Positions 43,762 to 47,362 of a stretch of 64,000 nt of DNA are shown here, one piece after another. The position numbers and the translations under genes were made by a program. A model generated the notes under the pieces. That model searched no databases. It was not told the DNA's origin and was given only the letters and a program-made list of their open reading frames with translations. Numbering within the stretch: position 1 is the first letter of the stretch; the number at the start of each line of letters is the position of its first letter. This DNA is from Halothermothrix sp. Its GTDB lineage: Bacteria; Bacillota; Halanaerobiia; DY22613. Location: the NCBI GenBank assembly GCA_016841825.1, contig JAENYK010000016.1, positions 1 through 64,000 of the forward strand. The letters are read 5' to 3'.

Positions 43762-44238
43762 TTAGAATATTATATAGAGTACCCATCCCGCCATCAACAG
43801 AGCAATTATAAAAGTAGCAACCACTCCTCCTAATACCCCAAAAAGGCTACCAACACCAACTCTGATTGCCTGATCCAAAGGACGCCCTCTGATCAATTCT
43901 ATTAAAATCGCACCCACCGGAGGGCCAACAATCAATCCGATCGGACCTAATGTAAATAGACCAACAATCAACCCAAACATCCCTCCAACAGCTCCCAGTT
44001 TACTCGCACCAAACTTTTGGGCACCAATCATACTCAAAAGATACTGCAGTCCTTCACCTAAGATCACTAATAACCCCAGAATAATTAATGTATTGATCGA
44101 AGGTACATTAAACCCAGTAGCATATGAATGAATCACTGCTCCGATTAAAATTAGAGGCGTCCCAGGTAACATCGGTAAAAAAGTCCCCAACACACCAATA
44201 ATCACCAGAACTGTTGTTATAGCTTTGTACACAACCAT
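43762..44238 (-). CDS. DUF456 membrane protein
   Basis: A 158-residue, Gly/Ile/Leu-rich protein with four to five membrane helices. The GTFLPMLPGTPLILIGA start and the glycine-zipper segment GAVGGMFGLIVGLFTLGP are typical of DUF456. The function is unknown. It is divergent from the RiPP-like cassette that begins 313 bases to its right. Confidence 0.82.
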   Translation of the reverse strand: MVVYKAITTVLVIIGVLGTFLPMLPGTPLILIGAVIHSYATGFNVPSINTLIILGLLVILGEGLQYLLSMIGAQKFGASKLGAVGGMFGLIVGLFTLGPIGLIVGPPVGAILIELIRGRPLDQAIRVGVGSLFGVLGGVVATFIIALLMAGWVLYIIF

Positions 44239-44550
44239 AGACTCTCTCCTTATCTCTCATTTTATTTAGTTTATCAAAATTACTCTCCTTAATACCTACC
44301 GATCTTCTTTCATTAGATACCTATCTATTACTCCTAATTTTAACAATATCCTTTATTTTTAGCCATCCAGTAAGACTTAATCTATAACACTTATTACGTT
44401 TTGTAACGATTATCAATGAGCTACTTTTTTCCCATTTTATATATTTATTTTTTTCATTACGCAGGACTTATAGCTTTTTTGCAGAATTATAATTTTATGG
44501 AAATGGGGTGAAGTAAGATATTTAACATCTATAACGGGGAGGTGATTTTA
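44239..44550 (+). other. divergent intergenic region upstream of the peptide cassette
   Basis: A 312-base A/T-rich gap that separates the minus-strand DUF456 gene from the plus-strand cassette and must hold promoters for both. A TATAAT hexamer is seen at 44488-44493 but its -35 partner (GACTTA at 44465-44470) is poor. No other structure was found. Confidence 0.4.
44465..44493 (+). promoter_or_regulatory. candidate promoter of the peptide cassette
   Basis: TATAAT at 44488-44493 lies 17 bases after GACTTA at 44465-44470 and 58 bases before the first peptide start. The -35 match is weak, so the promoter may need an activator or the true one lies elsewhere in the gap. Confidence 0.3.
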
Positions 44551-44655
44551 ATGTTAAATACCTGGAATTTGAAAGATTTTGACTGGAGCATTGAGACTGC
44601 CAGTAGAGAATGTTATGGCGTTGAGCCACCAATCGAATTTGAAAATAACTATTAA
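44551..44655 (+). CDS. RiPP-type precursor peptide 1
   Basis: A 34-residue peptide, first of four tandem near-copies. It starts MLNTWNLKDFDWSIETASRE and continues CYGVEPPIEFENNY. Residues 1-7 and Asp11-Trp12 are identical in all four copies, as are Thr16-Ala17, Cys21-Tyr22-Gly23 and Pro27. GGGGAGGTGA precedes the ATG at seven bases. The conserved first half looks like a leader bound by a modifying enzyme, and the second half like the core, with one Cys and one neighbouring Tyr as likely targets. A radical SAM/SPASM gene follows the fourth copy. No homologue is named from memory; the precursor call rests on copy number, pattern and context. Confidence 0.78.
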   Translation: MLNTWNLKDFDWSIETASRECYGVEPPIEFENNY

Positions 44656-44693
44656 TCTAACTAATCTAATCGCTATACAAGGAGGTGAATTTG

Positions 44694-44795
44694 ATGTTAA
44701 ATACCTGGAATCTGAAAGATTTTGATTGGAGCACTGAGACTGCCAGTAAAGAATGTTATGGCGTCGAACCACCAATCGACGAATTTGTATATTAA
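44694..44795 (+). CDS. RiPP-type precursor peptide 2
   Basis: A 33-residue peptide almost identical to the first: MLNTWNLKDFDWSTETASKE, then CYGVEPPIDEFVY. The differences are Ile14 to Thr, Arg19 to Lys and a changed C-terminal end (DEFVY). AAGGAGGTGAATTTG lies directly upstream. It starts 38 bases after the previous stop. Copies 1 and 2 share most silent positions too, so their duplication is recent. Confidence 0.78.
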   Translation: MLNTWNLKDFDWSTETASKECYGVEPPIDEFVY

Positions 44796-44831
44796 TCGAG
44801 CAACTATAATTCTTATAAGGAGGTGATTCGA

Positions 44832-44933
44832 ATGTTAAATACCTGGAATCTAAAAGAATTTGATTGGACTATCGAGACAGCAGGTGCAGTATGTTACGGG
44901 GCTAAGCCTCCTCTTGATGAATATGAATTATAA
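44832..44933 (+). CDS. RiPP-type precursor peptide 3
   Basis: A 33-residue peptide: MLNTWNLKEFDWTIETAGAV, then CYGAKPPLDEYEL. The leader-like part differs only at Asp9 to Glu and Ser13 to Thr, but the residues before and after the Cys-Tyr-Gly have changed (GAV, AKPPL). AAGGAGGTGA is upstream and the gap to the previous gene is 36 bases. Confidence 0.78.
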   Translation: MLNTWNLKEFDWTIETAGAVCYGAKPPLDEYEL

Positions 44934-44969
44934 TTGACGAGTCAGGTTTTTTATAAGGAGGTGAATTTG

Positions 44970-45071
44970 ATGTTAAATACCTGGAATCTGGAAGCTTATG
45001 ACTGGAACACTATAACAGCTACCGCTCCTTGCTATGGAACACTTCTACCTCTTCCTCCATACGAATTTTAG
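44970..45071 (+). CDS. RiPP-type precursor peptide 4 (most diverged)
   Basis: A 33-residue peptide: MLNTWNLEAYDWNTITATAP, then CYGTLLPLPPYEF. Leader residues 1-7, Asp11 and Trp12 are unchanged while most other positions differ, and Tyr replaces Phe10. Thr16-Ala17, Cys21-Tyr22-Gly23 and Pro27 remain. AAGGAGGTGAATTTG precedes it. It is the copy nearest the radical SAM gene. Confidence 0.77.
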   Translation: MLNTWNLEAYDWNTITATAPCYGTLLPLPPYEF

Positions 45072-45215
45072 TAAAAAATAAGTAATCTACATAGCATTCA
45101 CCCCATTTCCTTTCCAAAAAATTAGCAGATAGTTATCCATATTCAGAGTACAGCTACTGGTGATCAAAATTTTTTATTTTTTATGTCTCAAATATAATAT
45201 AAGGAGGAAAAATAC
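45072..45215 (+). other. spacer between peptide genes and radical SAM gene
   Basis: A 144-base non-coding gap, four times the spacing between peptide genes. It has a T-rich stretch (TTTTTTATTTTTTATG, about 45170-45185) preceded by only weak stem potential (AGTA...TACT), so partial termination that favours precursor over enzyme is possible. A TATAAGGAGG ribosome site for the enzyme ends it. Confidence 0.4.
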
Positions 45216-46262
45216 ATGAATTATTACCCACGTAAAGTAGTCTGGGAACTTACTAATGCCTGTAATGCCAAATGTATCCATTGTGGTTCTGAATCTGGCC
45301 CGAAACGGGCTAATGAAATGCCTGTAAAAGATGCCTTACGGGTCTGTGATGAATTGGGTGAATTGGGAACCAAACATGTTACCTTAATTGGAGGAGAGTG
45401 TTTCTTGAGCCCTTATTGGGACAAAGTATGTGAACGACTACTCGAAAACAATGTTCAAGTTACCCCCCTCAGTAACGGTATTTTACTGAATGAAGCTAAC
45501 TTACAATTAATGAAAAAAATTGGCCTCAAAGGTGTATCTGTCAGTATTGACGGTATTGGTGAAACCCATGACTATATTCGGGGAGTACCAAAGATGTTTG
45601 ACAAAGTTATTTCAAATATTAAGCAAGCTCAACATTTGGGATTTGGGGTTGGAGTTAATACCTCTGTTTCTAAGGTTAATATCCACGAATTACCTGCACT
45701 ATATTATTTCCTCAGAGAATTGGGTATCAAAATTTGGCAGGTTCAGATTGTTGAGGATATCGGTAAAGCTACCCGCAACACTGAATTAAAACTCGATCTG
45801 GAAGATCTGTATCAGATCGCCAAATATGTCGCCGAATTCCGTAAAAAAGAGGGTATGCGAGTCATCGTCGGTGATAATGTAGGCTTTTATGCTTCTTTTG
45901 AACCTATGATCCGTGAGCAACCTTTCACAGGCTGTTCTGCCGGAAGATGGACACTTGGAATTGAATCAACTGGTAATGTTCGTGGATGTCTCTCTGTTTT
46001 AGGAACAGACGAGAATACTGAGGGTAATCTCCGGGAAAGATCCCTTATTGACATCTGGAATGACCCGGAACTCTTTGGCGTTTACCGACAGCGAACTGTG
46101 GACAAATTGGAAGGTTTTTGTGCTGAATGTGAATTTAACAACCTTTGCCGGGCAGGCTGTTCTTCCCTATCTTATGCTTTAACTGGCAGCTTTTATGAAA
46201 ATCCTTTCTGTCTACATAAATATGAAGTTGAGCAGGGAATAGTTGAACAAAAAATGGCATAG
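45216..46262 (+). CDS. radical SAM/SPASM peptide maturase
   Basis: A 348-residue radical SAM enzyme. The cluster motif is Cys16-xxx-Cys20-xx-Cys23 in TNACNAKCIHCG, followed by the SAM-binding GGE segment (LIGGECF, about 58). The C-terminus has a complete SPASM motif: Cys240, Gly253, Cys258, Cys302, Cys305, Cys311, Cys315 and Cys332, in the exact CX(12)GX(4)C...CX2CX5CX3C...C order that binds two auxiliary Fe-S clusters. Such enzymes install thioether, C-C or other bonds in ribosomal peptides. No PqqD-like recognition domain is visible. AAGGAGG precedes the ATG. Directly upstream are four precursor-like genes, the presumed substrates. A terminator follows at 46308. Confidence 0.92.
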   Translation: MNYYPRKVVWELTNACNAKCIHCGSESGPKRANEMPVKDALRVCDELGELGTKHVTLIGGECFLSPYWDKVCERLLENNVQVTPLSNGILLNEANLQLMKKIGLKGVSVSIDGIGETHDYIRGVPKMFDKVISNIKQAQHLGFGVGVNTSVSKVNIHELPALYYFLRELGIKIWQVQIVEDIGKATRNTELKLDLEDLYQIAKYVAEFRKKEGMRVIVGDNVGFYASFEPMIREQPFTGCSAGRWTLGIESTGNVRGCLSVLGTDENTEGNLRERSLIDIWNDPELFGVYRQRTVDKLEGFCAECEFNNLCRAGCSSLSYALTGSFYENPFCLHKYEVEQGIVEQKMA

Positions 46263-46307: not shown

Positions 46308-46336
46308 CAAAGCCCCGTTACAGGGGTTTTATTTTT
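46308..46336 (+). terminator. terminator of the peptide cassette
   Basis: AAAGCCCC and GGGGTTTT form an eight-base stem with one G-U pair around a short loop, followed by ATTTTT. It lies 46 bases past the radical SAM stop and closes the cassette. Confidence 0.75.
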
Positions 46337-46465: not shown

Positions 46466-47362
46466 ATGCTTAAGATTACTATTGAAATACTAATCATGTT
46501 TATTCTAACCATTGGCATTATGCGGCTGATGGGTAAATCCAGTATCGTGCAGCTGACTCCCTATGATCTGGTAGCAATAATTATTGTAGGAACAATTATT
46601 GCCGAACCATTGATTAGTCCTGATTTCTGGCCGGCTATTCTCCGTTCAGTTATCATCGTTCTTCTCTATCTTCTCTTTGCCAAATTGAGTCTAAATCAGA
46701 TAATGAACAAATTTTTACTCGGAGAACCCAGCATCTTAATCAAACATGGTAAAATAGTGGAAGATGTATTAGAAAGAGAACATATTTCTTTAATTCAATT
46801 ATTATCTATCCTACGAACTGCCGGATACTCTAAATTGACGGAGATAGAATACGCTATTTTGGAACCAACAGGTTCCATTAGTGTTATTCCTATCTCCTCT
46901 GCCCGACCTGTCACTCTTTCTGATCTGAATATTGAAGGAGAATATGAAGGATTACCTTTAGCTGTAGTGATAGATGGAAAGATTCAAAAGAAGAATTTGC
47001 AGTTGGTCGATAAAGATGAAGCATGGGTGATGGAAAAAATTAGAAGTAAGGGTGTTACTGATCTTAAACAGATTATTTATGGATTTATCGACGACCAAAA
47101 TAGTAAAATCTATCTTAATTTGCGAGATTCGCCAAATAGCGAAAATGAGCTGATCTCAGATCAGACTACCGCTGCAAATAACGACATGAATTATACTCAA
47201 AAAATTTATCTGGTCAAAAATAAATTAATTCAATTAGACGGTTTAAAAGAAGCCCGTATCAAAAAATCTGAGTTATTCCAGATACTCAAAGTGAACAATT
47301 TATCCGGAATTGATGAAGTAGTTTTAGAAAAAAAAATCCATGTCACAACCGCCAAAGAATAA
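46466..47362 (+). CDS. DUF421 (YetF-like) membrane protein
   Basis: A 298-residue protein with three N-terminal membrane helices (about 5-75) and a cytoplasmic DUF421 domain. The RTAGYSKLTEIEYAILEPTGS segment (given here in part: AILEPTGSISVIP, about 135) is the family mark. The C-terminal 100 residues are longer than in the short YcaP form. YetF-like proteins have been tied to spore membranes in Bacilli, but the biochemical role is unknown. ATG 46466 has AGGTGA five bases upstream; GTG 46451 has none. It is on the plus strand like the cassette but is separated from it by a terminator, so it is probably its own unit. Confidence 0.88.
   Translation: MLKITIEILIMFILTIGIMRLMGKSSIVQLTPYDLVAIIIVGTIIAEPLISPDFWPAILRSVIIVLLYLLFAKLSLNQIMNKFLLGEPSILIKHGKIVEDVLEREHISLIQLLSILRTAGYSKLTEIEYAILEPTGSISVIPISSARPVTLSDLNIEGEYEGLPLAVVIDGKIQKKNLQLVDKDEAWVMEKIRSKGVTDLKQIIYGFIDDQNSKIYLNLRDSPNSENELISDQTTAANNDMNYTQKIYLVKNKLIQLDGLKEARIKKSELFQILKVNNLSGIDEVVLEKKIHVTTAKE

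Follow-up and report, generated by a model that had tools for sequence, protein, structure and literature searches.

The window, a 64,000-nucleotide stretch of a Halothermothrix sp. contig, has a compact cassette of four tandem short ORFs followed by a gene for a radical SAM/SPASM enzyme (table 1). The ORFs are present as described in the first-pass annotation, each of 33–34 aa and preceded within a few nucleotides by its own ribosome site (GGAGGTG), and the four encoded peptides, nearly identical to one another, all begin with MLNTWNL and have Cys21-Tyr22-Gly23. The copies belong to a single 99-nt direct-repeat family with spacings of 143, 138, and 138 nt. In the pairs that allow a calculation, dN/dS is 0.07–0.26 (several pairs approach saturation at synonymous sites and one is saturated), indicating that the precursors are under coding constraint by purifying selection. 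Neither the Pfam nor the NCBIfam models matched any of the four peptides, which have no Nif11 or NHLP leader and no DUF1843, and an Rfam search found no match inside the cassette.

The inverted repeat that flanks the precursor array has no further copy in the window or at other cassettes (0.04 chance matches expected). The hairpin located after the enzyme gene is the probable end of the transcription unit; three such hairpins were found versus 1.2 expected in shuffled sequences. The neighboring genes lack an evident tie to peptide maturation. Consistent with the first-pass annotation, no protease, exporter, or recognition-domain (RRE) gene adjoins the cassette.

Table 1. Location of features of the cassette and its flanks in the window
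Feature	Position	Strand	Description
DUF456 neighbor	43762-44238	-	flanks cassette
Inverted repeat, left arm	44499..44512	+	perfect 14 nt, GGAAATGGGGTGAA; flanks precursor array
Precursor 1	44551..44655	+	34 aa, MLNTWNLKDFDWSIETASRECYGVEPPIEFENNY; RBS GGAGGTG at 44538; CYG codons 44611-44619
Precursor 2	44694..44795	+	33 aa, MLNTWNLKDFDWSTETASKECYGVEPPIDEFVY; RBS at 44681
Precursor 3	44832..44933	+	33 aa, MLNTWNLKEFDWTIETAGAVCYGAKPPLDEYEL; RBS at 44819
Precursor 4	44970..45071	+	33 aa, MLNTWNLEAYDWNTITATAPCYGTLLPLPPYEF; RBS at 44957
Inverted repeat, right arm	45097..45110	-	14-nt partner of left arm
Radical SAM/SPASM enzyme, splicease-like	45216..46262	+	348 aa; CNAKCIHCGS, HDYIRG, WQVQ, GCSAG, full SPASM
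Intrinsic-terminator-like hairpin	46309..46335	+	after enzyme
DUF421/YetF neighbor	46475-47362	+	flanks cassette

Family placement of the enzyme

The enzyme exceeds the Pfam cut-offs for both Radical_SAM and SPASM. Its cluster ligands, reported as intact in the first-pass annotation, comprise C16xxxC20xxC23 and seven SPASM cysteines (C240, C258, C302, C305, C311, C315, and C332), all invariant in an alignment with 14 relatives. The best NCBIfam model is TIGR03913 (246.8 bits; curated cut-off of 591.75) in a near-tie with TIGR04103 (244.5 bits; cut-off of 725), with the third-ranked model well behind at 165.7 bits. With scores that fall well short of these cut-offs, it is not an equivalog of TIGR03913 or of TIGR04103. 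We take TIGR04103 to be equivalent to IPR026482, the family of PlpX. The window enzyme and nearly all of its YG-associated relatives carry the motifs WQxQ and GCxAG, which are absent from sampled MftC, TIGR04053, TIGR04133, and Methanoperedens enzymes, as well as from other radical SAM enzymes of the same genome. Its nearest families and these motifs place the enzyme in the splicease radiation, and the CYG of its precursors reads as an Xaa-Tyr-Gly splice site, which revises the earlier statement that no named class fits. PlpX, the prototype splicease, is a member of IPR026482 (PMC11002830).

The first-pass annotation had also raised SPASM subfamilies that act on proteins or metabolites. The enzyme is outside the subfamilies known for metabolites, and some of its relatives adjoin longer proteins described below. 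A sequence search of the PDB matched distant SPASM enzymes only and no splicease structure, and viral contigs have no relatives of the enzyme. Since CxxxCxxC starts at residue 16, there is no room for a fused RRE at the N-terminus. No PlpY-type RRE ORF is present in the window cassette and, across the genome, no match to the PqqD family (PF05402) is near this or any of its paralogous cassettes.

Seven paralogous cassettes with a common peptide module

A search of the genome (5.08 Mb, 43 contigs) identified six more enzymes with 54–58% identity to that of the window, after which identity drops to 31%. One to four short peptides adjoin each of the six, for a genome total of seven paralogous cassettes and 17 precursors. 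The precursors are located before or after the enzyme gene or are separated from it by a B12-rSAM gene. The earlier reading of a RiPP-like precursor and maturase cassette is supported. A DNA pattern of ribosome site, start codon, and W-[ND]-L has 15 matches across the genome versus none for the reversed control, and all matches are at the seven cassettes except for one orphan. The orphan precursor, MINKWNLENLSYESATEPPYMDYMPSEPPYDEHFNIA (YMP; L081:1407-1520), has no splicease alongside and is located directly after an NRPS condensation/carrier gene.

The peptides start with M-[ILV]-[ND]-x(1-2)-W-[NDE]-L, continue with an acidic/aromatic stretch, and next have a Tyr motif. A MAFFT alignment of the 17 peptides misregisters the Tyr and spacing was therefore measured directly: in 17 of 17 precursors, the Tyr is 17–20 residues on from the Trp of W-[NDE]-L, forming a shared WNL-(17–20)-Tyr module. 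The motifs vary by cassette and are CYG (the four of the window), PPYG, TPYG, KPYS, xYMP (four in one cassette and one in another), and xYC[TAC]P (four). Tyr is the sole invariant core residue and is followed by Gly, Met, Cys, or Ser. The lone Cys, treated in the first-pass annotation as a key feature, is unconserved among the paralogous cassettes and is merely one option at the Xaa position.

Besides the four precursors of the window, XYG persists at two sister cassettes and in the SAR324 outgroup described below. Four of the sister cassettes, as well as the orphan, do not keep Gly after Tyr, such that 11 of the 17 precursors, all at sister cassettes or the orphan, have YM, YC, or YS instead of YG. 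Either the target site in the cassettes of this genome has drifted from the known XYG rule or the chemistry differs among cassettes. In the tree, the two enzymes of YMP cassettes are sisters (support 100/98) and those of PYG and PYS cassettes group together (100/98), a pattern that coevolution of enzyme and site would produce.

YG precursors beside related enzymes and the origin of short precursors

The only close enzyme outside of the genome is in a SAR324 MAG (55% identity); a phylum-wide scan of 398 genomes found no other genome with close enzymes. The SAR324 enzyme is sister to the seven (support 100/100). Its precursor has 98 aa: residues 1–62 match the Os1348 leader of the NHLP clan at a score over the cut-off and are followed by FWNLDVDNIGPSEMAHSSHSAYGGCSGCGGW, which has FWNL and, after a 20-residue step, AYG. 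Most simply, the window peptides would be spliceotide precursors that lost the leader domain and were reduced to the recognition module, now at the N-terminus.

A second case is on the plasmid NZ_CP143948.1 of Agathobacter rectalis, a human gut plasmid. An unannotated 35-aa ORF, MFNLEELSLEFVKISELKTSKNLFGPVMYGTGVRM (MFNLEELSLEF...GPVMYGTGVRM; L098:3795-3901), has a strong ribosome site, GGGAGGTGG, and is located 82 nt before a splicease-like radical SAM gene and an MFS transporter gene. Because its enzyme is in a clade distant from the seven cassettes, XYG precursors this short probably have more than one origin. Together with the six further cassettes and SAR324, this case shows that homologous enzymes do pair with such peptides, whose lack the first-pass annotation would have counted as a refutation, and the cassette type is more widespread than that annotation could see.

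Related enzymes also neighbor YG-containing precursors. The Nostoc plasmid nif11_3 enzyme (RefSeq label TIGR04103) is located between a Nif11 precursor and, downstream in the PlpY position, a 72-aa protein. The precursor has the C-terminal end GGRGSIALYGLPPELF, in which ALYGLPPELF is close to the PlpA-derived splice tag PIRPLYGLPI (PMC10533398). Azospirillum and Aureibacter enzymes of the GDL type (TIGR03913) have DUF1843 precursors alongside with RPYG or QPYG. In a relative from the same taxonomic class as the window, several precursors are of the leader type, and SRYGVM/KYGV repeats occur in some of them. Across relatives with a scorable upstream neighbor, the ORF just upstream is enriched in YG dipeptides (26 vs. 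7.4 expected, 3.5-fold; 0 of 1,000 permutations reach 26). The neighbors, chosen by a simple rule of length and distance, include some false genes, an error expected to weaken the signal rather than generate it. YG is spread across the clades that surround the seven-cassette clade, which is itself separate from the TIGR04103/TIGR03913 clade.

Not all upstream proteins of relatives are short. In Melainabacteria and alphaproteobacterial relatives (L018, L019, L021, L034, and L039), they are longer and secreted-looking, with VTKYGVYFP or DYGVEW near the C-terminus, and may be subject to protein splicing. Myxococcota relatives (L020, L017, L022, and L023), often two in tandem, have upstream a C-terminal YKGV[ST]F instead of YG, possibly another change of the site rule.

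Proposed function and alternative explanations

In spliceotides, part of a tyrosine is excised from the peptide, which generates a reactive alpha-keto-beta-amino acid. In the characterized system, PlpXY excises a tyramine equivalent at XYG and leaves a ketoamide, without needing a RiPP leader, and a tag of about ten residues is enough (PMC10533398). Splice products can inhibit proteases (PMC10373908). By analogy, we consider it probable that the window encodes an RRE-independent spliceotide cassette with ultrashort precursors. The MLNTWNL module of each 33–34-residue peptide would be bound by the enzyme itself, with no RRE involved. At Cys21-Tyr22-Gly23, the enzyme would then use SAM and its FeS clusters to remove a tyramine equivalent (C8H9NO, -135.07 Da) and join the ends. 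The electrophilic ketoamide product could serve as a warhead of the protease-inhibitor type, and the four precursor copies would vary the residues around it. No CYG splice was found in the literature covered by the search.

Like the spliceotide system of the Pleurocapsa plp cluster, the window cassette has a SPASM radical SAM relative, a core Xaa-Tyr-Gly, and several precursors per enzyme. Unlike that system, its precursors are 33–34 aa without a Nif11/NHLP leader, its enzyme is below the TIGR04103 cut-off, and some of its sister cassettes have YM, YC, or YS; PlpX also works with the RRE PlpY, whereas no such partner was found here. Because the RRE partner and leader are absent and the chemistry is predicted from sequence, we consider the cassette most likely a variant of spliceotides with neither leader nor RRE, and not a full member. 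Relative to the GDL-motif maturases of TIGR03913, the window enzyme has its top HMM score, and DUF1843 neighbors of that family have PYG. However, those enzymes are longer (about 475–520 aa) with a C-terminal extension and their precursors are DUF1843 proteins of 54–70 aa. With 246.8 of 591.75 bits and no DUF1843 in its peptides, the window cassette was rejected as a full member.

The loss of Gly at sister cassettes and in the orphan is the weak point of the splicing interpretation and sets its main rival. A splicease relative could instead attack the conserved Tyr by another reaction, such as desaturation, epimerization, MftC-like oxidative chemistry, or a Tyr crosslink, which would account for Gly not being kept in this genome. 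That Tyr alone is invariant in the core while its next residue varies, and that the seven-cassette clade stands apart from TIGR04103/TIGR03913, are consistent with this alternative. We nevertheless regard it as unlikely, given that XYG persists in the window precursors, two sister cassettes, and SAR324, that YG recurs across the surrounding clades, and that the enzyme retains WQxQ and GCxAG. Mycofactocin biosynthesis resembles the window system in its small precursor, radical SAM/SPASM enzyme, and Tyr chemistry, but MftC lacks WQxQ/GCxAG, depends on MftB as its RRE, and modifies a Val-Tyr at the C-terminus. Mycofactocin and PQQ were rejected as candidates: the enzyme scores 121.5 of 265 bits to the MftC model (TIGR03962) and 87.3 of 381 bits to the PqqE model (TIGR02109), and the window peptides run 11–12 residues beyond the Tyr with no C-terminal VY or E-x3-Y.

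Short ORFs upstream of an enzyme and flanked by an inverted repeat could also be regulatory (leader peptides or attenuators) or unrelated, with the enzyme having another substrate. This explanation is very improbable considering the dN/dS of the copies, the recurrence of such peptides at each of the seven paralogs, where their position varies, and their fusion to a RiPP leader domain at SAR324. The slimmest chance falls to a thioether RiPP, sactipeptide or ranthipeptide-like, formed through Cys21. Although each window precursor has a single Cys and the enzyme is a SPASM protein, the PYG, PYS, and most YMP precursors, whose enzymes are 53–58% identical, lack a core Cys, leaving no conserved crosslink donor, and the enzyme has far lower scores to the models for PapB, SCIFF/six-Cys, AlbA, and SkfB.

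Implications

To our knowledge, few ribosomal pathways yield beta-amino acids, and tyramine splicing is among them. It has already been applied to protein labeling and is linked to protease inhibition. The prototype splicease is a two-protein enzyme and needs tag optimization. If the window enzyme does splice, one small protein acting on a natural substrate of 33 residues would make the simplest splicing system known to us. Splicing without an RRE at non-XYG sites, which we consider somewhat less likely than not, would offer self-contained tools for placing ketoamides there, and Cys as Xaa would put a thiol adjoining the alpha-ketoamide. The seven paralogs, with differing residues after Tyr, represent a natural series for mapping determinants of the splice site. 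Such precursors are missed by annotation, as with the Agathobacter rectalis MYG ORF, which is missing from the gene table as given by PLSDB.

Additional genes at sister cassettes

Genes encoding B12-binding radical SAM proteins are beside three sister cassettes (L011:6212-7696, L013:6387-7871, and L014:10727-12193). Their best model is BchE and they are also ApyD/BzaD-like. Their location suggests a second modification such as C-methylation. In the apy cluster, three metalloenzymes, including the B12-rSAM ApyD, produce RiPPs with C-terminal beta-amino-alpha-keto acids (PMC11117315). The two systems are alike in their alpha-keto-beta-amino acids, as predicted here, and in the ApyD-like neighbors of the three sister cassettes; they differ in the enzymes that make them and in the precursor type, and the window cassette has no B12-rSAM gene. 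The YCxP cassette (L009:7536-15948) is within an array of several radical SAM genes, including a Clo7bot-like one, together with a gene for an M16/PqqF-like peptidase.
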